From Strobilurus pachycystidiatus (taxonomy: Eukaryota; Basidiomycota; Agaricomycetes; Agaricales; Physalacriaceae), in NCBI GenBank assembly GCA_019915135.1, contig JAHLMK010000009.1, positions 682,001 to 746,000 of the forward strand: a stretch of DNA of 64,000 nt. Direction: 5' to 3'. Positions 2,063 through 44,586 of the stretch are shown here, in pieces (position 1 is the first letter of the stretch; each line of letters begins with the position of its first letter). The notes beneath the pieces are model-generated. The model saw only the letters and a program-made list of their open reading frames with translations, did no database searches and was not told where the DNA came from. The translations under genes were made by a program, and so were the position numbers.

Positions 2063-3479
2063 ACGACCGGCAAAATTCGCAGAAGTATTACGCCGCGCGT
2101 CTTAGCACGATCGAAATGAATCAACCTTATTTATAAGACCATCTCCTCCTTAGCGCTCACTAGCGCTCACTGGCAATGTACTATGATATCATGTAACACT
2201 AGTTATCTACAGGTACCATCGATTCTCAAAGGCGACGGGATCACCTTTTGCAAGTGACCACCAATTTCTTCTCACTAAAACCCTGCCCACCTCTCTGTAC
2301 CGCAAATCACCGCTAGATGTGTAACATCGCTACTGCGACTCTACACACCTACTCGTGACACTCACAACCTCTCACTGCTGATGTGAAGCGTACCAACGCT
2401 GCAAGATGGTCAACCCTGTGCAGCAAATTTGAATGTGGTGCACAGATTGATTATTTCGATGCTGATGGCGACAGACTTGACTGCTATCAACGATGCCGTA
2501 TAAGACACGATAAAAATCCGAATTTTTGACAAATCTCGATGCTGACGGTCGAGACATGGGTCACTACTCAACCGGCCCACCATCTGGCCGCACAGCTAGT
2601 CGACCTCGAACGCCGCGTCGGCACCACACCTGGTCTTCACACCTCTTGGCAGGTGCAGGCATGAACGTGACAGTAGCCTTTGTTCGAATACGCTGCGGCC
2701 GGAAGCACGGAGGGCGTTTCTCTTGGTCAATGAGGACTGAATAGCCACTACTGCGCAGTCTCTTCGCGGAAAGTTCAGGGAAACGTGCGAGGCTCGAAGG
2801 AAAAAAGTGGGCATCTAGCGTATGCAAACATCGGTCCGGAATGTACCAGTTGGTAACCGACGGAGGCGCTGAATCATTGCATTTATTACGAGTCCCCAGT
2901 CACTGATCCATGCCAAGTCGTTCCGTTCCGTCGATGTATCCAAGTTAATACAATGTCCTGGTGCTGGTGGTTCGAAGGCATGAGGTATCAATGTAACATG
3001 AGCTTTGTAGCGGTGACAAAATCAGTATATTTCAATGTAAAAACAGCTCGTTCGTATCGACGTCCGAGATAATCCAAGTCGAGATCACTTACACGAGTAA
3101 AACCGCGCCACACCTACCTTGGAGTAAGTCCATGGCTGCCGTGGTCCCCTTTTTGTGATCTGCATAGTAAAATGAGTCAGTGCTTATATGTAGCCCACAC
3201 AGTCGCTCCAAGGGTGCTGAAAGAGCTAAAAGTGACTGCCTAACCCTGACGCCAATCGGAGCCCGTATCACGAATTTGGCGGGGACTGCCTGCCAACACC
3301 GAAACGCGAAACCCTGCGCGTATGTGTCCAGATTGGGCGCGCAAGAGTGCATCAATCCGACCCGAGGGCGAAATTGAACCACGCCGTAGCTCAAGCTCAA
3401 GACCCGCTCGTACCATCGAGAGCTTGCCCGCACGCCCGTTTTGCACACGGTCCCTTGAACAACGCCTACAGACCCTTCT
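2063..3479. other. intergenic stretch without a supported gene
   Basis: No frame here shows a recognisable domain or a consistent set of splice sites. Open frames at 2526-2827 and 3089-3625 overlap each other on both strands. Part of the latter belongs to the decayed DnaJ copy to the right. Confidence 0.5.
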
Positions 3480-4085
3480 CTACCTCCTACTCTTCGAGCT
3501 TCTTGCAATCTTCCAAAAAGATATATTTGCATCAAAACGTTCTTGAACCCAATGGCTGATCTGAGGGTGGAAGATATTCTGAGGGCGCAAAAGAAGAGAG
3601 GGAGCGTACATTTCACTGTATACAAGGTATTTGCCCTAGACGTTGCTTAGCCAGCCGCGTACACCGATAAAAGACTGGTTTGTTGCCGCGAGGTGGCGTT
3701 GCTCCTGGAAGTAGACGAATTCGAAGACCTGGAGGAGCTCGACACCTTTCGGGGACAAGGGTTAATATTGCAAAGTTGAGTCGAGAAGGAGACACCCACC
3801 TGTATGACTACCCGCAAAATCGCGCCAAGAATTCCCCCATTTTGACGACCCTCTGTCCAAGGTTATTGTACTTTTTGCGTGGCGTGTCATCGGACAGCGT
3901 CTGGTAAATATCTGATAGGCAACCACATCTTCATTCACGCTTTCCGCGGCGTGCAGATCGTCCGGGTTCTTGTCAAGGTGGTGCTTGAGCGCGAGGCGGC
4001 CGTACGTTTTCGTGGTTTCCACTGATGTCGCCGTTACTGGCACGCCCAAGATGTCATGATAGCCCGTCTCTAGTGGGTTTCCTGT
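3480..4085 (-). pseudogene. DnaJ (Hsp40) family pseudogene
   Basis: Read on the minus strand, 4085-3790 encodes a clear J-domain beginning LETGYHDILGVPVTAT, with helix II, the loop and helix III in order. The invariant HPD tripeptide reads HLD (KHHLDKNPDD). The helix III region then shifts frame inside an apparent short insertion (AYQ, then YQTLSDDTPRKKYNNLG in another frame) and hits a stop soon after. Further down (about 3725-3480) matches to the fungal DnaJ-X region appear in changing frames (NQSFIGVRGWLSNV, then STLRSAIGFKNV). The order of segments is that of an ordinary cytosolic DnaJ protein. With the HPD change, frameshifts and stops it cannot make a working co-chaperone. Confidence 0.75.
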
Positions 4086-6817: not shown

Positions 6818-6996
6818 ACAAGTAGCCGACACTCGCAATCATACCGCGTCGTAGATCGACCGGAATTGACTGTGACCTTATCTATGATATCCTCCTCTCG
6901 TTTGGTTATTAATTTAAAGTTGACATCACAGCGCCGCTCGGACATCAGCCTATTAGCAGCACAGTACCTATTACCCGGGAGCTCACATATGGCACA
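6818..6996. other. short intergenic gap up to the element border
   Basis: No gene. It ends in the AT-rich TATA target-like sequence (6997-7000) that abuts the large mobile element. Confidence 0.4.
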
Positions 6997-7011
6997 TATA
7001 ATGTAACAAAA
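6996..7011 (+). repeat. left terminal inverted repeat
   Basis: ATATAATGTAACAAAA is the reverse complement of 19239-19254 apart from one base. The inner 10 bases (7002-7011) match exactly. Confidence 0.75.
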
Positions 7012-7012
7012 G

Positions 7013-7290
7013 TTTTATACGCACACATGCAGTTCTCGTAGTTTTACGCACCCGGATTAAATGAATCGCCCTGTTTCAATCCAGTTTCTCAATTCACGCA
7101 TGACGGATATTGCCGACGTCTGATTTCACGCACCGTCCCCCATGTCATTCAATTTCACGCAGGTCGACTGATTGATACATCAAATGCGCGCACAAGCAGC
7201 ACTCGTTGTTCAAATTCACGCGACCTATGAGATGTATCTTAAAACTCACGCAACCTGGTTCACTGTAGCGTCAAACTCACTCATGCGATG
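7013..7290 (+). repeat. left subterminal array of TTCACGCA-type words
   Basis: About nine imperfect copies spaced 20-40 bp, for example around 7041 (TTTTACGCAC), 7091 (AATTCACGCA), 7121, 7151, 7211 and 7241 (AAACTCACGCA). The same word in the opposite orientation fills the right end (18912-19225). Subterminal repeats of this kind are commonly transposase binding sites in DNA transposons; that role is inferred here. Confidence 0.75.
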
Positions 7291-7996
7291 GATGTCCTAT
7301 GCAAATCAAGCATGACCTCGCATAGGACAAGTCAAATCAGCGCAAAGTCCATACCTCCAAGGAGTCACATCACAGTGTCCGGCTTCGGCGGCGGAGTTCG
7401 AAATCATTACTCATCCTCCGGCTGTCAAGTACAGCCTTGCTCGTCGTTTGCTTTGACCCACACTTATGGTGGTGCTGCTTTCAAGGATCAGAGCCGACGT
7501 TCTACAGCATCATTTTCGAGGCGCCTCATCATCATGGTCTTCAGCCCGCACCTATAGCATCCACCCGTTCAACCATACGTATTCCTGTGTATCTTGATAT
7601 CTATCTTCGTCTGAATACTGATCTTTGGCGCGTCGATCTGCGTGGCACTGGCAAGAATATGTGAAAATGGAAGGTTTGGACACTGTATGACGGAACAAAA
7701 CGCGTCACTACGCGTCCTCCTTCCTGTCCCCTGTGCAAACCTCTATCACTCACTTGTGGCCGCCGTGGAGCACTGTGGCGTTCTGCTAATCGAGCCAAGG
7801 CAAGGTGGGGCATTATCTTGGTGAATTGCTCTATCTAACTGACGTCTGGCCATGGTAACCAGGTCTCCTAACTTGGGTTTCGTCATATTGGACTCCAAGG
7901 TATGAAATAGGCAGAAATCTGACTCCAGCAGCTCCAATGGGATTGTCAGTATAAGAATCTGTCGTCGGCCGTTCTATCTCATTGCTTCCTCCCCAG
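7291..7996. other. leader region of the large element gene
   Basis: No domain is recognised. An 89-codon plus frame (7288-7557) and shorter frames exist, but none joins convincingly to the gene that follows. It probably holds the promoter and 5' leader. Confidence 0.35.
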
Positions 7997-10900
7997 ATGC
8001 ATCGAAAAAAACCCAATCTAGTAGCATCCCACCCCGATGGAATCTGTAGCCGCCTTCTTCACTGGCTGCTTTCCATGTTCTTCGTTCTTTTGATTCCAGT
8101 TATCATCGTCCTTGCTCTCTGCCACTTCAAGACATCGGCTCTGGCTCTGCATGCCTGCGATCTACCGATGGCTTACACCGTCCTGACTGGACACTTTTTG
8201 GCTCTTGTCTATACTCTTGGTATGTCTCATCATTGTTCAATTCTTCTTCTTGTTGATGTCGCTCCAGTCTCCCGTTCTTTCCCTTCGCAGTTTCTTCTCA
8301 GTCACATTATACCTCGTGGACGTATCCGATATTGCCGGGACCATATCTCTCATGCCAGCCAGCGCCGTCTTCGACGCATCATTGCTTCGAGACCGATGAC
8401 CGTCTTTGTACTAGGAGCCGCTCAGTCGTCTGTTCCTATCTGTAAGTACCATCATATGTTCAGTCTCATTCCTTGGACTCATTGTGTCGAGTAGCGGTCA
8501 CAGAGTCTTCCACGTTATCCGATGTTGTAGATGCCCTCCGAGAGCGCTCTTTGATCCCGTCCGGATCGTTCATCCTTTCATCCCTCTTCTTTCACTTTCC
8601 CGGAACTCTCATGGCCCTCCCTGTCACGAGCACTATGCGCGACATTGGAGCGGGTCCACTCTCGCATCTTCATCTCCGAGTCAGGCTTCTTGGAGGCGGC
8701 GGCGGATGTCGCAACTTCAAGGGCAATCACCCTTGTGGGTGTCGGGGTTTCTGGGCCGACGAAGTCACTAGTCCCAAGTCTTCTCGTAATCCCGGAACTC
8801 CCTGTGGTGTCTGTGGCTGTCCGCTTGGTATACACGATGAGATCTCCTCGCCTTCGGTCAGTCCATGGCCTTTGATTTCTAATTCTATCTAACACTTCTC
8901 ATAGGCGCTACCAACTGCTGCTGCGACGAACTCAACCCCCATGCAACCCCCACCATCTATACCCTCGGCATCTACAAGCTCGTCGACGTACAACTCTCTT
9001 TTTGGGTCCCGTACTGCCCCTTCCACTTCGACCGATCCTTCTCCTCGGCCATCATCGTCAAAGGACTACGGGGCAGCGCCCTTCAAAGCAACTGCTGCGG
9101 CTCTTCAACGAAATGAGGAGGTGGCAGCGGCTGGCAGTGGGTCCGACTTTGTCGAAGGCCTCAAGAGCCAGGCTAGGGATCGAAGCGCTCGATTTCATCC
9201 TGCTCAGACGGTGAGTATCTATGATGGCTACTGCTCTTCTCAGCTGATCTTGTCTTGAGTATCAGGTAGCCGCTGACCTTGATCATACTGGTCGTGGTGA
9301 GGGTTATAAGCATCGTAGCAAGAAACGCGGCACCAAGTCGGCCAATACCTCAGCGAAAACAAAGGCTCCTACCGTGAAGACGCGCAAGTTCACGGTCACA
9401 CTTGTGGAGGGAACTAAAGCTGTCGCAGTCGGTGAGTACGAGAAACCAAATGAGAACAAGTATGTCCTTTGCTGCAATGTTGTTGAATCGAACTGATTTG
9501 GGCTAGACATGAGCATGAATGTCGGATATTTTTGGATATTTCAATTATATTCGTATCCGACATCCGAAGATATTTGGATGTCGGATGTCGGATACCTTTC
9601 GGATGTCGGATACCTCTCGGATGTCGGATGTCCACTTTCTGAGCAGACATCCGAGACATGATAGTGTGGGCTGTAGTATATGAGTGTTCTGTGTTAGCTA
9701 TGTGACTCTAATTGACATTTACACACAGTATAATATCATAACTTCATAGTAGGTATGGTTTCAGGCTGCTCTTGATGCAATATTATGCCAATACTCATGG
9801 ATATTCAGATATATTCGAATATATTCGGATGAATATTCACAAATATTCGGATATTGGACAATTCTCTCGGATGCAATGTCGGATATCCATCCGAATACGA
9901 ATATCTGGGTTTGAGGTGCACATATTCGTGGTTCGGATGTCAGATACATCCGAATAGACACTCGTGATCATGTCTAATTTGGGCGTCTCCAGAATCAGCA
10001 TGCTTGTGAGCGAGGGCTATATCACGTCAGTCGAGGCAGCCGAAGATTTATCGGGCTTTGAAGTCGATGCCTGTATTGAGGATGGCTTCGACGACATTCT
10101 GCCGCATCCTCTGCGATACTATACTGGATGGCGTGTTCTCACCGTTCAAGAGTCGACGATAACCGTCAAGCGATCAGCAAAGTCAGTCAGAACGGGCCAA
10201 ACCCTGAAGACAGAGCTCAGCACACGGAGACGCCTAGGAGTTGCTCATGTTCTTCGCCCAATGACTCTGAAGGGCGGGAAGCATCTGACAGTAGACCAAC
10301 TACTCCAGTACGTTGATTCTTATCTGTGCACAGAAGTTCAAATCAAGTCTTACTTGCTCGTCAGTGCTTCAATCAGTGGCGGCGTCCGGAACAAGGCAAA
10401 AATATTCCCAAATATGATCTATATTGCCCTCGATCCCGGAGAGCCTAATCTTCCACTTGGCGGCGTAACAAGTCAGGATTACGCCGATGTTATACACGAT
10501 CTAGACCCGAAGGAGATCATGGAGCGTACCGTTGTCTCCGACTCTGACTCTGCATCGGACAAGGACGACTCTGCAATGGAAGATTCCGAGGAGTTCAAGC
10601 CGAAGCCAAAGGTTTCTTTAGATCAACTTGAGTCGCCTCTCTTACTGATATAGATCTCAGAGGAAGTCTGCAAGCCAATCTGGACCATCTCAGCGCAGAA
10701 AGTCGTACCCAATAGCAGCCGAAAGCGACGACGACGGGGATTCTTCGGCTACGCCAGCTCAGAATCTACGTAAGCATAGCCATGTAAGTACAAAGCCCCT
10801 TCTATTGAACCGTGCTCATTCTCTCTCTCATAGAACAAGTCGTCTGCGAGGCAGACACACAAGACTCACACCAAAGTACGAGTTCATCTATGCATCGATG

Positions 10901-13900
10901 ATTTCCTGAGCTTGACTATTGCAACAGGAATCTCGGAGCCGGGACGACGAGGACGAAGCAGCACCCAGTTTCAGCACTAAACCGACGACTTCAAGACCAG
11001 GGCTTCGCAAGCACAAGGTGAGATCAAACTCATCCTTCACTTTGTCTCTACTGCTCTAACACTGAGATAGTTGGATGACGACACACGTTCTGCGTCGGAT
11101 GATGAAGGTCTAAAGTCACCCAGAAAGCCTCGTAGAAAGCGTAGCAGAGTCTCAGTCGGCAAGATGACAGAGGATGAGATACATTCGAAGGGCAATAATC
11201 AGGTTTGTGTCACTGCACCTATCATACACTTAGCTAATGCTGGCCAATTAGCCGCAAGTGCCAGATGACTCCGCGGATGAGGCTTCACATTCGAAGACCA
11301 CCAAAGATAAAGGGAAGGAGGTACATGCATCCAGCCTTGTGCGACTTGTCATTCACTAATACACCTGTTAGCCCTTGTTCATGTTCTCCTCGGATGGCGA
11401 AGAAGATCAGCATCCATCAGATGGGCGTGGCTTTCGGGATGCAGACGTACGATCCAGTTTTTACTGTAGTGTGCTATTGTCTCATCATCGTCCCAGTTCA
11501 TCCACGACGACGACGACTTTGATATGTCAGCCTTTCCCGAGTTTTCGACATCCAGTACATCGACCTCGTATCATGATACACGTTCTGGTCATGGTACTGC
11601 GAGGCAGTCTACACCAGGTCCCTCTGGTTTTAGGCCCTCTCCGGCACCGTCGGCAGCTGCGCAGTCATCGCCGCCACCGCCATCGCCCCCAATTGCAGAA
11701 CCCTTCACTGCACCCAAACCAATGGGAGTTTCGGCGCCGTCTCCTCCTTCTGAGCCTACCCAGCGAGGAGAGCCTGACTCGCCTGTGACATCGCATGACA
11801 TGTCATTGTACATTATCCCTTCAACACACTGTTCTACTTTGCGATACCTTTCGAACATGTCCCGTCCGGCGGTGTCTACAGAGAGCATGCGATCTACAGG
11901 CTGGGTAAGTCATTTCACAAACTCTTGTCTCACTGTCTTGATAACACCGGAACACAGTGGAGGGACAAGGCCTCGCCCGAGTATACACATATCCAGGAGA
12001 GCCATACTCGTATTCGAGCATGGCAGGAGCTGGTGCTAGGACGGGAACCACCAGCGCTCAACCCGGCGAATCTTCTGGAGGAGGTTTGGGGCGCGCTGAA
12101 CACAAAGTTCTTGTCAGATGTTGTTGATCTCTCCCAACGATGTGGTAGTACGGGTCAGCCATTTTTACGCCAGGAGGACAACCTGTTCTTCGAGCAGTAC
12201 ATAGTCCTTGGCAGTGGCGGTCTCTGTATTCTTACAGACTTCTTGACGACTCTCTACACCATCCTTCCCGCTTTGGCCGTCTTCCCTCCTAGCTCATTCT
12301 CCTCGCTCCCAACTGTTCCACAGGCCTTTTCTCGATGCTTGAAGATCTCGAATGCGGTATATGCTCTGATATCCTATTTCCGCTCGCACTATTCTCGTGT
12401 TCAGTGGGAGGCAGAGGGCTTTCGTAACCTTGCCGCAATTCTTTGCTCGCAATCGCATAAGTTTCCGGTGTGTACAAGCGACACGTCTCTATGTATTACT
12501 CTCCTGACTATCTCTACAGACGGCGTCATCGGCTTCTCGATTCTATTCAGAGCTACAGACCTTGTCAGGTGGTTGTCTCAAGCCCGGTCTCGATCTCTCT
12601 GCATGCTTGGAAAGCCTTTTTGGAGATCCCGGCAAACCACAGCATATGAATGAAGATATCCTCTATGTCGGAGAGTTCGGTCTTTCCGGATTCTACAGCA
12701 ATGTTGTTGTTCGCTTTCTTGACGAGGAGAGCCGCGAACAGCCCGGATACGAGAAGGCATATGCTCTTCTGAAAGAGTGTTGCGAAGCTGTTGCGCGAAA
12801 GCTGAGGAATCAAATCAAGGTAAGCACTCTAGCAAGCGGACATCAAGTATATGCTGATATACATTCTGACAGCGTCCAAAACAGTACAACAAGGGAGCAG
12901 ATCACGCAACTGCGAAGGATGTTGCCGATGCCGACACTGAAGCGCGTACACGTCCGAAGACTCGCGCTACTGCGTCTCAGAAAGTAAGACTCACCTGTTT
13001 AACCTGATTATATACTCATGCTCTTACAGGCATCCTCCGAGAAGGTCAATTCGAAGGGAGATGAGGATCAGAAGAGGCGTCGTAACCGAAAGTAATCTCT
13101 ACCTTTCCTTAGTGATATTCGTCCGTTTACAAATATATCTGCTTCTCCTTTAGAACTGGTAATTGGCGTTTCCGACCTTCATATCAAGTCGGCGAGGACT
13201 ACTACGAAGTTCATGAGACTGATAGTCCTGACGGTATGTTTCCCTTATGATATGTACGACGCCATCGAGTCTTACTATGTCAGATATGTCGAGTACGGAG
13301 TCCATTGGGAACAGCACATGGTTCCTTGATGAAAACTTGATTCCAACGGACCAAACTGCGTCAGAGGCAAGAGCAAAGCGGAAGAAAGGCACGTCCAGTT
13401 ATATCTGTTCTCAGTCTATCATATTCACCAGTTATCAGATCGTGAGGAAAGAGCGAGACCGAAGCCTAATCCAACCGCAGGTACAAGAGGTCGCGGTCGA
13501 GGAGGCAAAGGAGTCCCAGGTTCTTCTTCGCATGGCCAGACCAGTCGCACTCCGGTGACACAACAGGAGAAACTAGCAGCATTGGCACGGTGGTTTGTGA
13601 CCAAACCAGGATGGGAGGATGTTGCAGAGAAGATCGTACTGTGGTTTCCTCATCCTCTTGTTCTAAAGCGCCTTACATGGTCTACCATGAAAATCCTTTC
13701 GCAGAAGGAGCAGCGGCGCATGATATTGATGGTTCGTATCATAAAGCGGTATGATTGTGTATCCCTTCTAACAAGATCTATAGGCGTATCATCCTGATCA
13801 CAACCCGAAGGACCAGAAACAGTGGGGGTTGTATTCGTCAGAGATTATGAAGTATGTGACCTTATTCAAAGTTCGGCCTGATGGAAAAGTTTCACTGTAA
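7997..13900 (+). CDS. large multi-exon element protein with ubiquitin-like domain and C-terminal HPD motif
   Basis: About 21 exons joined in frame give a protein of roughly 1,460 aa. Segments in order: a hydrophobic first exon (7997-8219, one likely TM); a ubiquitin-like domain (8396-8697) that opens MTVFV and closes LHLRVRLLGG; a Cys-rich stretch (CGC, CGVCGC); Ser/Pro linkers; a mixed domain (9266-10611, interrupted by an intron holding a MITE); short charged Ser/Lys/Asp exons (10661-11446); a Pro-rich linker; a helical region (11958-12820); an Arg/Gly patch; and a final exon with YHPDHNPKD and a following helix, which resembles helix III of a J-domain. The ATG at 8396 is an alternative start placing the ubiquitin-like domain first. 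The intron near 13390 appears to use a GC donor. The function is unknown; it looks like an accessory or regulatory protein of the element. Its stop overlaps the end of the convergent integrase gene by 9 bp. Confidence 0.65.
9506..9974. mobile_element. 469-bp MITE in an intron, TA target duplication
   Basis: TA (9504-9505 and 9975-9976) flanks an element whose ends are inverted repeats of the form GACATGANCAYGARTGTC (15 of 18 match). The inside is unusual: dense repetition of CGGATGTCGGAT and TTCGGATAT words on both strands. It lies wholly within the intron 9460-9992 of the large element gene, so splicing can remove it. TA duplication is typical of Tc1/mariner-type movement. An element at 62031 shares the same left terminus. 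No coding capacity is seen. Confidence 0.75.
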
Positions 13901-15514
13901 TTTGGCGGTTAGAGTAACTACTGCTTCACAATAGACTTCGATTCCCCAGTTTCCGTCATCTCTATCAAAGTCAAAATCCCTCATGAGAGCTCGCACCTCC
14001 TCTATCTCATCATCCTTATTCAACAGTAGCCCTCGCTCACGTTGCGTATCCAAATCTATATCAGGAGGAATATCTTCACGCTGCCCTTCCTGGTGATCGT
14101 CTCCGGTGAATGAAGACAATGAGTCTATGCCATATTGAGGGTTGTTCTGTACGTCCTCCAGAGGGTCACCGGCGTCGCCTGTCCAATATCCACGGTTGAT
14201 GGCCTGCTCTCGACTGAGCTCATATATGACCACCGGACTACGGTTCCTATCGGTGCGAATCTTGTGATGATTCCAGGCATCAAGAACACGGTTCAGTGAG
14301 ACCTGGATGCGTCGCTGGAAGGTAAGGAAGAGACATAGGCGATGGATGTCATTCGCCATATCCAGCAAGCTAAGTCATTCGAGATAGAAGAAGATCTGGC
14401 GAAAGGCTTCGATGCAATCCTTCCTGATGTCGCGCCAGCCTCTTTCCATTCTAACATTCCCCGTAGATCTGAATTCAAATTGAGAGCAAGTCATACATGG
14501 AGCTTTGTCAACTCACTGGCCACGAATATAGGCATTGTGTAGTTCGCCCCAATGACGAATCATCTCCTCCTCTATACCGTTGTTCTCTCCTCCATAGTCA
14601 CCGCGAACGCGGCTAGGCCATCCATAAACACCTATGGCATCGAGGAAGAACTTTCGAACGGTGTCTGACCTCTTGTTGCTTGTGCACTCCAAGTAGATAA
14701 GAAGGCGAGAGTGGCCGTCGATGCAACCATGAATATAGAAGCCCCAAGGCCTGAGTTTCTCGTTTCCATCTTGATGCCACAAAGCATTCGCTCCGCGCAC
14801 TTTGTATACGGTTCTAGACATCAGAGCACCCCATCTGTGAAGCTTGTCTCATACTATCCAATACTCGAGTAATGATTGCACATACCTGGTAAGAACACCA
14901 ATTTCGTCAACTCTCTGCAGACTCTGCTGAATTCGGCGCAGGGGCAGGTGAATCTGCCTTGACTCGAGCAGACCTTTGAGAATAATGGACCCGCTGAATG
15001 GATGTTCAAGAGAGAGCTGGGCGATCTGCTCATCCAGCTCTTCGTCTGACATGATGGTGAACTCTCTGCGAGTACCCCCTAGACCAGCTTGAGTCAGATG
15101 TCGCCAGAGGGTCTGACGACTGATACCCATGGCATGAGCAGTGTCATTCCAGCTTGCACCGAGCTCATGAAGCAATAGAGCGCGTTGCAGATTGAGGATA
15201 TAGCGAGGTCGACCCTGTGTGGGCTGATACAGTCTGGGAACAAAGTCGGATGGATCTGGAGGAGGCCGCTCGAGGAAGGCGACCAGAGGAGAGATGAGAG
15301 TGTCAAGGTACTCGGAGAGATCCTGACCATTGTCAAGTTCTCCTTGAATAGACTGGAGAATAGTGCGCAACGCGGACAGAACATGTAATGCCCGTTCCGC
15401 TGCATCCAATTCTGCATTTGGGATACAGTTGATGACAAGCAGAGCTCGTGTGGATGCTCTGTGACATTCCATAAGGAACTGGTGAATCGAGGGTGAGCCA
15501 TGACTCTCGGACAT
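13892..15514 (-). CDS. DDE integrase-type transposase
   Basis: Predicted start is the ATG at 15514 (an upstream in-frame one is at 15613). The first exon gives ~220 aa with a helix-turn-helix-like segment (NDTAHAMGISRQTLWRHL). After an intron comes the retroviral-type integrase core: ALWHQDGNEK with the first Asp, FYIHGCIDGHSR, then VRGDYGGEN with the second Asp. A further exon gives RMERGWRDIRKD with the likely catalytic Glu, then a C-terminal region ending in an acidic tail. The three acidic residues and their spacing match the rve/IS3-like fungal integrase-core family that recurs in Agaricomycete genomes. It is the probable mobility enzyme of the 7001-19249 element. Its stop (13892-13894) overlaps the last codons of the convergent gene. 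Intron boundaries in 14300-14560 are less sure. Confidence 0.75.
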
Positions 15515-15654
15515 GATAGTATCAGAGAAAGAGCCGAATTTCAAATGACTCAGATCTGAACCGATAAGGACCAGGGATGGAAAACAGCCAACAGAGCGAG
15601 CAAAGACACCCATGAGCTATGAGAATGGTACTCTGACTGTACCACAGATACTAA

Positions 15655-16540
15655 AACATGTACCACTTTTGCCTCAGAGAGTTTAGTGGCGCAACTTCTT
15701 TGATGTTGATCATTCCTTGAAGTCTTCTGCTACTTGGTGCTATTTGTAGAGTAGAATGAGAGTGCTCATACATCTGTATGACACGTGACTGGTGTGACTG
15801 CGCCACGTACCTTGAGTGAAGTACCACTTCTGCTCTAGGACCCGCAGTGGCGCAATTCCTTCAATCCTGACCTTTCCTATATGCCTTCTGTCACTTGGTG
15901 GTGTTTGTGGAGTGAATTTCAGGTACTCGGATACCCTCGCGACGCGTGACTGCGCCACGTACCTTGAGTGAAGTACCACTTCTGCTCTAGGACCCGCAGT
16001 GGCGCAATTCCTTCAATCCTGACCTTTCCTATATGCCTTCTGTCACTTGGTGGTGTTTGTGGAGTGAATTTCAGGTACTCGGATACCCTCGCGACGCGTG
16101 ACTGCGCCACGTACCTTGAGTGAAGTACCACTTCTGCTCTAGGACCCGCAGTGGCGCAATTCCTTCAATCCTGACCTTTCCTATATGTCTTCTGTCACTT
16201 GGTGGTGTTTGTGGAGTGAATTTCAGGTACTCGGATACCCTCGCGACGCGTGACTGCGCCACGTACCTTGAGTGAAGTACCACTTCTGCTCTAGGACCCG
16301 CAGTGGCGCAATTCCTTCAATCCTGACCATTCCTAAATGTCTTCTGTCATTTGGTGGTGTTTCTGGAGTAGTATTGGAGTACCCGCATCCCTCACGATGC
16401 GTGACTGTGCCACACATGCTGAGTGAAGTACCACTTTTGTCACAGTGGGTCTAGTGGTGCAATTCCTTTGCTCTTGACCATTCCTATATGTCTTCTGCGA
16501 CTTGGTAGTGGTATGGAGTGAGAAATGAGAGTATTAATAT
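15655..16540. repeat. tandem array of a 152-bp unit (about six copies)
   Basis: The unit is repeated head to tail with a 152-bp period. Three central copies (about 15811-16266) are nearly identical, differing at single bases such as tatatgcc/tatatgtc, and the copies at either edge are diverged. Each carries the word ACGCGTGACTGCGCCACG and the pair GTACCACTTCTGC and GTGGCGCAATTCC. Minus-strand frames of 60-80 codons across it are products of the repetition, not genes. It lies between the integrase start and the end of the next minus gene, so it may contain the integrase promoter or a protein-binding array. Confidence 0.85.
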
Positions 16541-16637
16541 CTCAAGCTATAAGCTCTTGTTCACATCAAGGAGTCCAACTTTAACTAGTGAGGTGGTTTA
16601 CCATTTACCACTACAACTCGATAAATACATATAATTA

Positions 16638-18774
16638 TTACTCATCGTCATCATCGTCGCCCTCGTCCATCTCCTCCAATTCCTGTAATAGCTCATCTCC
16701 TATGTCGTCGTTCTGGGACTTGTACAACAAGCAGCCGCGCGATTCAACCTTGGACCTCTTTGCTGCTCGCTCTATCTCCCTCCTAAGATCGCATGCAGCC
16801 GCTCTCTTTCTCACCGATTTCCCAAATATCTGCGGTGTCCGCTTTGTTGCAGGCAGATTCTCCACCCGGTCGGCTGTCCATACAGCAGACACAAATACTT
16901 CGAAACTATAAGGGCCCGGCGTCGTATTATGAGCGACGACAAGGACATCCTCAGTCGGCTTCATTTGAAGGAAAGACTGCAAAGGATTAGAAGAGGAGAA
17001 AGTCAGGCGTCAAAAACCTACATAGATTGGCGTATTCCATGACGCAGGTATCTTTGCTGTGATGGGCGTATAAATATTGACGGTCTTTGCTGACTTGACA
17101 CCGCGAGAAATAGAGAGGCGAAAGATCGGTAGTTTGAGCTTTTTCGTGCGATTGTCCATGTTGCGGATAGTTGGTTCCAGGCCAGGATGATAGAATGGTT
17201 CGTCATGGGAGTCTAAAAAGACTATAAGTGCGTATACCACTGGCTTTGAGAGGCTTACCAGTCGTCACGGATGCAGTCCCATCGTCGTTGAGTGTCGCGT
17301 CTGAGTTCAGCAGATCAGTGTCTCGCAGCTCCTGGAACTCCTCCTTTGAGATCCATACAGTGTCACGTCGGTAGATGGGGACGGTTCGCAAGAAGCGCTT
17401 GTGAGCATCTGCATTGAAGGAGAATGCACCAGGTCCTGACGTATGTGCGAGTGGAGTCTCGGCAAGCATCGCCAGACGCCCAAGTTGGTAACGCCTGTGA
17501 TGGTCAACAAACTGACGCCATAGAGAATCAAGCGAGGCAAGTAAATAGATAGGCATGATAGGATGAATACGTGCGTGCCAGAGCATGTCAGTCGTCTCCT
17601 GGGCACCGTAGCCGTTGTTGACTAGCTGGTTGCCCTTGACAGCGACAAAGATCGGAGTACGATCTTTCGATGCCAGGATTTGCGAGCGCCAGAGACGAAG
17701 AGCCTCCATGGTCTTCTCCGGCTCCAGATGATGTACTGGACCATGGGAGGAGGACCAGAGATACGGCCATATCTACAGCGTCAGAGATGAGCAAAGATTG
17801 CGATGATAAGAAGCAAACTTACCTCCGAATCGGACAGAAAATCTGAGGGAGTACATGGTCGGCGGAGACGCATAACATGAAAGGAGATCATGACGTTATG
17901 GTCGAGAAGAATTAACGTCCACTTGCCCCGTCGAAAGTACATCTGGATCGAGGCGTAACCAGTACTGTTCGGCGGTCCTTGGAACATGTCAGCGGGAACC
18001 TCGAACGATTTACTCTTCTGTCCCCGCGCCACAGGTGGGCTCCCAGTGAGCTCATCGAACTGGGCGGTCGGAATCCAAAGTAGATGGCCCTCGAGTCCGA
18101 AACATACGCGAATGACAAACTAAATGTACTTATTAGTGGTATAACGGACAGTGAAATAAGATCATACGTCGTCAATGCCAAAGACAAGCTCCTTGCCTCG
18201 ACAGCAGTGAAGGAGCTGGCCTTTGAGCTCAAGTCCATTGAGAATGGCCGCGGCGGTCTTGTTGTTGAGTGTCGAGTACTTGTTCTTCTGGAGAAGAGAT
18301 GAGGACCAAGATACAGAGGAAGACAGATGATACTCACAATGTCGTCGGGCGTAGTAGTTCCGGCTTGTGAGGGCGGCTTGAAGGGCATAAGACATTTTAA
18401 CTAGAAGTGAGGTGTGGATGGACTCACAGAGACGCATCGTGTACAAGCCGATGTCGTCGATGTTTTCTTCTTCTTGCCGGCACTACTCCGTCGTGCAGAT
18501 GTCCGTGGTTTGGCGATGGGAAGGAAGTATGGGTCGTTGTCCAGAGGGTTGTGAATGGTCACAGACTGGCGGGCACCATTTGACCGCGCCAAAGTCGCCT
18601 CAAACACGCCAAGGCGGCCTGGAAAGAAATCAGATACAGAGATATTATGACGAGAACCATGCCGAGCTTACCAAACTCGGAAGGGTCACTAGCGGGCAGC
18701 CCAGTGCTCCCTTTATCACTGGCATGAAGCGCCACCTCGTTGTCGAAGTACTTGATGACTGTGAACTCCGGCAT
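16638..18774 (-). CDS. conserved element-associated protein, function unknown
   Basis: Starts at 18774 (MPEFTVIKYFDNEVALH) and runs through about eight short exons to an Asp/Glu-rich C-terminus (stop at 16638). Recognisable blocks include LDNDPYFLPIAKPRT, a YALQAALTSRNYYARRH helix, KTAAAILNGLELKG, NNGYGAQETTDMLW, then SLDSLWRQFVDHHRRYQLGR, RFLRTVPIYRRDTVW and TPGPYSFEVFVSAVW. I have an impression that this family accompanies integrase-core genes in Agaricomycetes, but no function is known. One junction near 18440-18470 changes frame (from the Lys-rich stretch to DDIGLYTMRL) without an obvious intron, so there may be a frameshift and the copy may be inactive. Confidence 0.6.
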
Positions 18775-18911
18775 GGCGGACGAGGGAGGACGCGATGATG
18801 GCGGTTGGAAATCAACAAAGACGCGACGCGTCGTCACAGTCACAAAGGCCTAAACAGATCGCGGAGCCGAGGGTTCAACCCAGCGTGAAAACAACCCTTT
18901 TCCATACACTA

Positions 18912-19225
18912 GTGCGAATCGAGAGGTATTCCGAGATAGTGAGTGCGTGTTTTGAGAGAAAAACAAAGGGTGTGTGAATTTAAGGAAACTACAGCTGGCA
19001 TGTGTGAAACTCTCGATGCACACATGTGGTATGCGCGAATTTGAACACTTTGTAAATCAGGTGCGTGAATTTGAACGCGTGTGTCATGGGGGTGCGTGTG
19101 TTTTGACTGCCGCCTTGATGGTTGTGCGAAAGCGTCTTGATGCTAGCAGAGGTGCGTGATTATTGAGCAAAAGGCGGCCAAGTTGCGCGCAAACGACGAA
19201 AAAGCGGACTTTGGTGCGAAAATAT
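18912..19225 (-). repeat. right subterminal array of TGCGTGAA-type words
   Basis: About nine copies of the reverse complement of the left-end word: for example around 18943 (GTGCGTGTTTTGAG), 18971 (TGTGTGAATTTAAG), 19031 (ATGCGCGAATTTGAAC), 19061 (GTGCGTGAATTTGAAC), 19091 and 19151. Orientation is mirrored relative to 7013-7290, as expected for the two ends of one element. Confidence 0.75.
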
Positions 19226-19238
19226 CAAGAAATTGTAT

Positions 19239-19254
19239 TTTTGTTACACTATAT
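19239..19254 (-). repeat. right terminal inverted repeat
   Basis: TTTTGTTACACTATAT is the reverse complement of 6996-7011 with one mismatch. A TATA direct repeat (19250-19253) sits at the edge. Confidence 0.75.
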
Positions 19255-19488
19255 CCGCCACACTCACAGTACATGCAACGTTACATAGCGTTTTGTGCCC
19301 ATCCTGTATCGCTTCTTTCGCTTTTGAGATGAAACGGCCCGCAAGTAGATCGTGGCAGACGTGATCGCACATCAGTTCTATCATGTCATTTCGCTGTTCC
19401 TAACACCATATACCTTGGCAACGTCTTCTCCTCCATTCTCGTCGACGCGATCTCAAAATCGCCATTGTCGTGATTGCCATCAGTATCC

Positions 19489-44504: not shown

Positions 44505-44586
44505 GGCCTGATGGTCTAGTAGTATGATTCCTTGTTAGGGTAACACTTAGTCGAGGAGGTCCCGGGTTCAATTCCCGGTTAGGCCC
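44505..44586 (+). tRNA. tRNA-Pro (anticodon AGG) with 10-nt intron
   Basis: The acceptor stem GGCCTGA pairs with TTAGGCC (44579-44585), followed by discriminator C. The anticodon stem CCTTG (44530-44534) pairs with CGAGG (44552-44556). The loop reads TTAGGG, with anticodon AGG at 44537-44539. A 10-nt intron (44541-44550) lies at the canonical position after base 37. The T-arm CCGGG/TTCAATT/CCCGG is intact, and a TTTT terminator follows at about 44590. D-arm box A (TGGTCTAGTAG) is present. Confidence 0.85.

Follow-up and report, generated by a model that had tools for sequence, protein, structure and literature searches.

The window analysed here is a 64,000-nucleotide stretch of contig JAHLMK010000009.1 of the mushroom Strobilurus pachycystidiatus (C9:682001-746000 of the 51.8-Mb genome), and it contains a transposable element of about 12 kb whose features are listed in Table 1. 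Inside this element lie, as an original prediction made from the letters of the window had stated, an integrase-core gene (gene B) and two other large intron-rich genes, namely, gene A and gene C, the latter encoding a predicted Fpg/Nei-like protein.

The original prediction had bounded the element by inverted ends of 16 bp with one mismatch (6996-7011 and 19239-19254), with TATA at both edges. Both the repeats and these letters are present, but comparison with other copies places the borders 8 bp further out at each end; the terminal inverted repeat (TIR) is thus 24 bp long, with 4 mismatches, it encloses the 16-bp ends as well as both TATA, and the target-site duplication is CTCACA. One end of the element reads TATGG and the other TGTGG. 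A degenerate 21-bp pattern of the ends, which occurs more often than by chance, gave 16 zero-mismatch matches in the genome, 12 of which form six inward-facing pairs, the other four being solitary; with up to 3 mismatches there were 51 matches, as compared with 35 for a reversed control pattern, whose matches were not split by mismatch number. The six pairs correspond to the window element, two large copies on C1 and three short copies of 840, 842 and 890 bp. Perfect 6-bp duplications flank four of them: CTCACA, CAATTG, CCAGTC and CAAATG (window element, both C1 copies and the short copy L024). A 10-mer search also suggested end pairs on C36 and C6, which were rejected, as their ends are unrelated. 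The joined flanks of the window insertion matched, within the assembly, their own two flanks and one partial stretch of 60 bases, with no empty allele.

Next to the TIRs lie the mirror-image arrays that had been predicted, as described by the word WYRCGCR, which was picked after inspection of this window. The left 300 bp hold eight such words (shuffle mean 0.83) and the right 300 bp hold seven in the opposite orientation (shuffle mean 1.32), and neither number was reached in any of 500 shuffles; the words thus keep the same direction relative to each end, and they are rare in the interior of the element (0.11-0.34 per 300 bp). The three short copies show them more weakly, as does the left end of the C1 copies, where two words were counted, a number matched by 19 of 500 shuffles; the left part of the short copy L026 also has two (57 of 500 shuffles). 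The short copies look like ordinary non-autonomous derivatives. In form, they are the arrays without genes that had been proposed as an argument against the prediction, but they leave the transposon itself unrefuted.

Movement of the whole unit

Evidence for mobility comes from the two C1 relatives. Each is 19,174 bp long and they differ from one another at 6 positions. They lie in the same orientation, separated by 144 bp, and the 6-bp duplication of one differs from that of the other, so that they are separate insertions. Around 3 kb downstream, an uninterrupted stretch matches positions 8-378 of a 378-position query, made of the joined C1 flanks plus spacer, at 66% identity. In this stretch the first target hexamer occurs once, in diverged form and with a 9-bp gap directly ahead of it, and the second site is only loosely aligned. 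Two near-identical 19-kb relatives with differing duplications and a related insert-free stretch therefore demonstrate that the whole unit transposes, as had been proposed, and the element is a real cut-and-paste transposon that has been moving recently.

Both C1 copies have their companion genes interrupted. First, an 850-bp repeat, which in our reading is a solo long terminal repeat (LTR), splits gene A within its ubiquitin-like exon. Second, an insert of 4.45 kb with two repeats that are 99.6% identical, flanked by an AGTAGT duplication, lies in the third exon of gene C, which also has an additional in-frame stop. The integrase frame is open in these copies. In the window copy the situation is the opposite: our gene models leave genes A and C open, and the integrase carries an in-frame stop (14377-14375) past the catalytic glutamate, which the original prediction had not mentioned. 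Since the 19-kb copies moved with genes A and C interrupted, the companions either act in trans or are not required for movement; it seems that neither gene is needed intact in cis, unless gene conversion later equalised the C1 copies. The proposal that the companion proteins help the element to move is thus left unproven.

As for the inserted repeats themselves (L017-L020), the larger, LTR-like insert occupies C1 element coordinates 13807-18261, with its 850-bp repeats separated by only 2.75 kb, in which the longest stop-free frame has 232 codons, and the single repeat of the same LTR-like family lies at 3043-3893. These 850-bp repeats had been considered as short copies of the element, which was rejected, since they resemble the LTRs of another element.

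The window and C1 versions are mosaics. Synonymous divergence (dS) between them is 0.89 for gene A (comparing 1,097 codons among the first 1,129), 0.18 for the integrase and 0.05 for gene C, with dN/dS ratios of 0.22, 0.11 and 0.42, respectively. Near window position 13,990, identity climbs from some 77% to 92%; positions 7,027-7,987 and 9,488-9,987 could not be aligned to the C1 copies, and 10,488-11,987 aligned in part. A stretch of degenerate GGATGTCGGATA-like repeats (9460-9990), located within a predicted intron of gene A, does not align to the C1 copies. The 152-bp tandem repeat upstream of gene B, the sole array in the window scoring at least 120, gives a repeated, partial alignment to them.

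The integrase and its companion genes

The gene B product has a helix-turn-helix-like N-terminal part and an rva_4/rve core, with a DDE triad in which 34 residues separate the second aspartate and the glutamate. Pfam rva_4 matches two integrase open reading frame pieces of the window (E 3.6e-31 and 6.4e-11) and also relatives, and rve and HTH_7 match the window pieces at E 2e-4, under their cut-offs. At least 64 homologues were found in the database, the named ones mostly from Agaricomycetes, with a coral among the more distant; this count, like that for gene C below, is a lower bound, because scoring in the protein searches was confined to the 7,994-7,995 candidates with the most shared words. 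The 20 of these 64 homologues that were aligned (A2) all keep the presumed acidic triad. In a test covering four relatives of the window protein, the NCBIfam IS481 model matched all four (E 4e-10 to 2e-15) and the IS3 model matched three of them, in both cases significantly but under curated cut-offs. A search of PDB sequences with the integrase profile returned a Tn3 resolvase first (E 7e-4), with retroviral integrases following only from E 0.04 upwards. A pattern-based search of viral contigs gave no relative of either the integrase or gene C.

These data bear on the class of the element, which the original prediction had been unable to assign. In the literature, IS3EU elements have 6-bp duplications, with TAYGG..CCRTA ends in rusts and TA..TA ends overall, and GingerRoot elements occasionally have TG..CA ends (PMC12730594; PMC10045372); IS3EU is already listed among Ganoderma and Phlebopus repeats (PMC8955403; PMC12411881). 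Our element shares with this group a DDD/E transposase of the IS3/IS481 lineage, as judged from Pfam rva_4, the NCBIfam matches of relatives and the conserved triad. It also shares the 6-bp duplications, found at four of the six TIR pairs and at the one paired copy of a second lineage. We have therefore filed it as probably of the IS3EU/GingerRoot type on account of its integrase family, 6-bp duplication and single TATGG terminus, the other terminus not matching; that it belongs to no known class is not supported.

The second integrase lineage, on C14, has TATGGG ends, and a 2.8-kb paired copy of it shows TATGG at both ends and is flanked by CCTTTT. Its integrase and that of a further lineage at C1:5874470, where no TIR was found within the 10 kb examined, are 43-45% identical to the window integrase. 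The C14 locus consists of inverted arms of 8,065 bp that are 10 mismatches apart (1055609-1063673 and 1066972-1075036; L028, L029, L060), each with one IS3EU-type end, the 2.8-kb short element lying between them. As each copy of this 8-kb inverted duplication has a single recognisable end, the pair was left out of the TIR pairs.

Gene C is predicted to encode a protein with the fold of the Fpg/Nei (MutM/NEIL) DNA glycosylases, in which the main catalytic residues are kept. At least nine homologues exist, eight of which were aligned (A1; P0002, with a mis-annotated middle, was dropped), and the Fpg/Nei profile comprised 131 proteins, namely, 80 of at least 542 bacterial matches, all 49 viral-contig matches, and E. 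coli Nei and MutM. The Pfam H2TH and Fapy models match nothing in the genome, and so miss gene C itself. First, a structural model of a gene C homologue has the two domains of the Fpg/Nei fold. Second, the DNA-contacting lysine of the N-terminal domain (Lys53 of E. coli Nei, Lys54 of NEIL1) is found in nine of nine family members, aligned with that of Nei; the NEIL1 lysine presumably lies in the same motif. Third, Pro2-Glu3, the catalytic residues of NEIL proteins (PMC8879280; PMC10164570), occur in seven of nine members, the window protein included, and the models of the other two seemingly start downstream. Both the MPE start and the lysine persist in relatives that are about 31-36% identical. 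A further relative of gene C, with the MPE start and about 44-69% identical depending on the piece, lies at C35:123404-125566 (L056); no integrase or TIR was detected nearby, and it is a candidate host-retained copy.

The gene A product has a weakly ubiquitin-like N-terminus, a cysteine cluster, a low-complexity middle, a region shared with a C14 protein, and a J-like C-terminus containing HPD. Over nearly their full length, the first 86 residues show a weak alignment with ubiquitin (PDB, E 0.17), and the ubiquitin-like reading also draws on a Pfam Rad60-SLD match under the cut-off (E 0.029); the last exon encodes AYHPDHN, similar to the HPD loop that J proteins have (E 0.2-1.3). Both readings stay weak, since the E values are poor and two of three J-like tails of this kind have no Pfam match whatever. 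A single-sequence fold of one ubiquitin-like exon was uninformative (mean pLDDT 42), and a protein database search gave nothing at E <= 0.001 among the 7,987 candidates sharing most words. Within the genome, a single BLASTP comparison shows that a protein adjoining the C14 integrase matches gene A in one region and at the C-terminus (E 1e-7 and 0.002), and a gene A-like tail, recognised by eye and missed by tblastn, adjoins the C1:5874470 integrase. A tblastn search of nine loci with gene A found a remnant on C19 alone, and nothing at the C1:5874470 locus or the C10 locus. This remnant of a gene A relative (C19:29648-30465; L062) lies where the integrase search had no match.

Table 1. Features of the window (positions in the 64,000-nucleotide stretch).
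Feature	Position	Strand	Description
Left target-site duplication	6982..6987	.	CTCACA
Whole transposable element	6988..19262	.	12,275 bp; TIR pair, 6-bp duplication, ends matched by both 19,174-bp relatives and by the three short copies
Left TIR	6988..7011	+	TATGGCACATATAATGTAACAAAA
Left subterminal array	7012..7311	+	8 WYRCGCR words; shuffle test
Gene A	8396..13900	+	about 1,350 aa, some 19 exons (own prediction) with uncertain borders, most of all at 13030-13500
Gene B, integrase/transposase	13892..15514	-	500 codons, 3 exons (15514-14886, 14813-14517, 14468-13892)
Tandem repeat upstream of gene B	15794..16521	.	152 bp, 4.8 copies
Gene C, predicted Fpg/Nei-like fold	16638..18774	-	597 aa, 8 exons (own prediction): 18774-18672, 18618-18428, 18376-18338, 18287-18168, 18119-17823, 17772-17259, 17212-17022, 16976-16638
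Right subterminal array	18939..19238	-	7 WYRCGCR words, opposite orientation; shuffle test
Right TIR, read inward	19239..19262	-	TGTGGCGGATATAGTGTAACAAAA
Right target-site duplication	19263..19268	.	CTCACA
tRNA-Asn (gtt)	44505-44586		

Roles of the companions and rival readings

Taken together, we consider it probable that this Agaricomycete carries an IS3EU/GingerRoot-type DNA transposon with several genes, with an Fpg/Nei-like gene C and with companions that act in trans or are dispensable. The integrase would bind the subterminal and terminal repeats and insert the unit with a 6-bp stagger; the companion genes would act in trans, possibly through complementation among element copies, or else movement itself would proceed without them. 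Gene A may be a structural or regulatory companion common to several lineages. Gene C may act on the bases of the element's DNA, removing oxidised, methyl-derived or deaminated ones, and could thereby shield the element from silencing or mutation, by analogy with the TET/JBP genes of fungal transposons. We suggest this base-directed role because of the predicted fold, the catalytic residues, the TET/JBP parallel (PMC12730594) and the activity of NEIL1 on 5-carboxylcytosine (PMC5566547).

Several observations weigh against this interpretation. At the level of the element, one terminus is TG and not TA, two of the six TIR pairs (the short copies L025 and L026) have no 6-bp duplication, and the copies that moved have genes A and C interrupted. 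At the level of gene C, the fold model is that of a homologue and not of the window protein, with a mean pLDDT of 56 and 266 of 581 residues under 50, the best stretch being 117-350. No zinc-finger cysteines are evident, and model confidence is under 50 through most of the C-terminal part, where a zinc or zincless finger with its DNA-contacting arginine would be sought. In all eight members with this region, alanine (GxGA) stands in place of the H2TH asparagine that E. coli Nei and MutM have (GxGN), and gene C is therefore filed as a homologue with an Fpg/Nei-like fold and not as a proven member. An hmmscan of eight gene C relatives at E <= 10, with filters that drop most matches above 0.1, gave no Fpg/Nei domain, and no Fpg/Nei entry was among the matches of a profile search of PDB sequences. 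Lastly, the gene C dN/dS between the window and C1 copies is 0.42, on few changes, and the CpG content of the element and its flanks is not clearly different.

Some of these observations would suit genes A and C being passive passengers, captured by an IS3EU transposon and with no part in mobility or protection, an account that we hold to be possible though doubtful. It would agree with the movement of the C1 copies with both genes interrupted, with the gene C dN/dS, and with the C35 relative and the C19 remnant being located where the integrase search matched nothing. It is opposed by the conservation of the MPE start and lysine in distant gene C relatives, by gene A-like proteins next to a further integrase lineage in the genome, or perhaps next to two, and by the gene A dN/dS of 0.22 at a dS of 0.89 over 1,097 codons.

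It is likewise a tentative alternative that gene C is a re-purposed, catalytically dead protein of the Fpg/Nei fold that binds transposon ends or transposition intermediates. The replaced H2TH asparagine, the lack of visible zinc-finger cysteines and a start without the second glutamate that E. coli Nei and MutM have in MPExPE all point in this direction; retention of the DNA-contacting lysine and of Pro2-Glu3, which are catalytic in NEIL proteins, points away from it. In a more far-reaching reading, Agaricomycete IS3EU transposons could carry a NEIL-type glycosylase that excises oxidised methylcytosines, or other products of silencing or mutation, from the element; it would provide in trans the excision half of a demethylation route, the oxidising half of which (TET/JBP) is carried by other fungal transposons. 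We deem this unlikely; in the genome there are 13 weak matches to the TET/JBP family (E 5e-6 to 1e-3, none above the Pfam cut-off), which make an oxidising partner possible.

The inference from the C1 copies would fail if gene conversion had equalised them after transposition, in which case the LTR insertions in genes A and C may postdate the last move. In favour of this, the copies neighbour each other and share one orientation; however, 19 kb including both LTR insertions would have had to be converted while the differing flanks stayed sharp, and we find this quite improbable. The categorically new class of the original prediction is very improbable indeed: no other element with such a gene set appeared in the open-access literature searched, but the integrase family, the 6-bp duplication, the TATGG end and the precedent of other multi-gene elements all suit IS3EU.

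Comparison with known systems

The IS3EU class is known but little studied, and multi-gene members, namely, Styx and the TET-positive rust elements, are already published; we found no description of a repair-glycosylase-like passenger in such elements in the open-access literature searched. Capture of TET/JBP genes by fungal transposons has been interpreted as a likely anti-silencing device (PMC12730594), human NEIL1 excises 5-carboxylcytosine (PMC5566547), and a 2022 paper on oxidised methylcytosines in two mushrooms stated that no activity excising them was as yet known from fungi (PMC8889193). A transposon-borne NEIL-like protein is a direct, testable candidate for that activity. Units of this kind attain 12-19 kb in this fungus and have moved despite disrupted companion genes, which makes cis and trans requirements testable.

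From the features of those groups, and with no dedicated search, we take the element not to be a Starship, Helitron, Crypton or Maverick. Maverick/Polinton elements carry a protein-primed DNA polymerase and capsid genes alongside the integrase, and Pfam scans of pieces of the three genes, which were not a dedicated search, gave neither a polymerase nor a capsid domain of this sort. The predicted exclusion of KDZ elements (Kyakuja, Dileera, Zisupton) is borne out by the 6-bp duplication, as opposed to their 7 or 8 bp (PMC12730594).

As for gene C, it resembles the Fpg/Nei glycosylases MutM, Nei and NEIL1 in predicted fold, MPE start, N-terminal-domain lysine and an aligned H2TH region. It differs from them in the replaced asparagine, in having no visible zinc finger, in a long insert past the N-terminal helix, in a long C-terminal extension, and in being borne by a transposon.

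With the IS3EU/GingerRoot elements (PMC10045372; PMC12730594), the window element shares the IS3/IS481-kind DDD/E transposase, the 6-bp duplications, the presence of accessory genes and, at one end only, the TAYGG-type terminus. In contrast, its other end is TGTGG, its TIR is 24 bp with 4 mismatches, compared with more than 30 bp in rust IS3EU families, and it carries an Fpg/Nei-like gene and the large gene A. Rust IS3EU elements carry TET/JBP plus an alpha-kinase (PMC12730594), and Pfam scans of pieces of the window genes turned up neither domain. The TET-positive elements of rust fungi and Tuber (PMC12730594) are nonetheless alike in being IS3EU units with a captured type of DNA-base enzyme, an oxidising dioxygenase there and a glycosylase-like protein in an Agaricomycete host here. 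Styx of Zymoseptoria, of 7,927 bp and with four genes, differs in that size and in its accessory genes, which encode GATA, CCHC and DUF3577 proteins, and is alike in its IS3EU-type transposase, its 6-bp duplication, its several additional genes and the mobilisation of an integrase-dead copy (PMC10853768).

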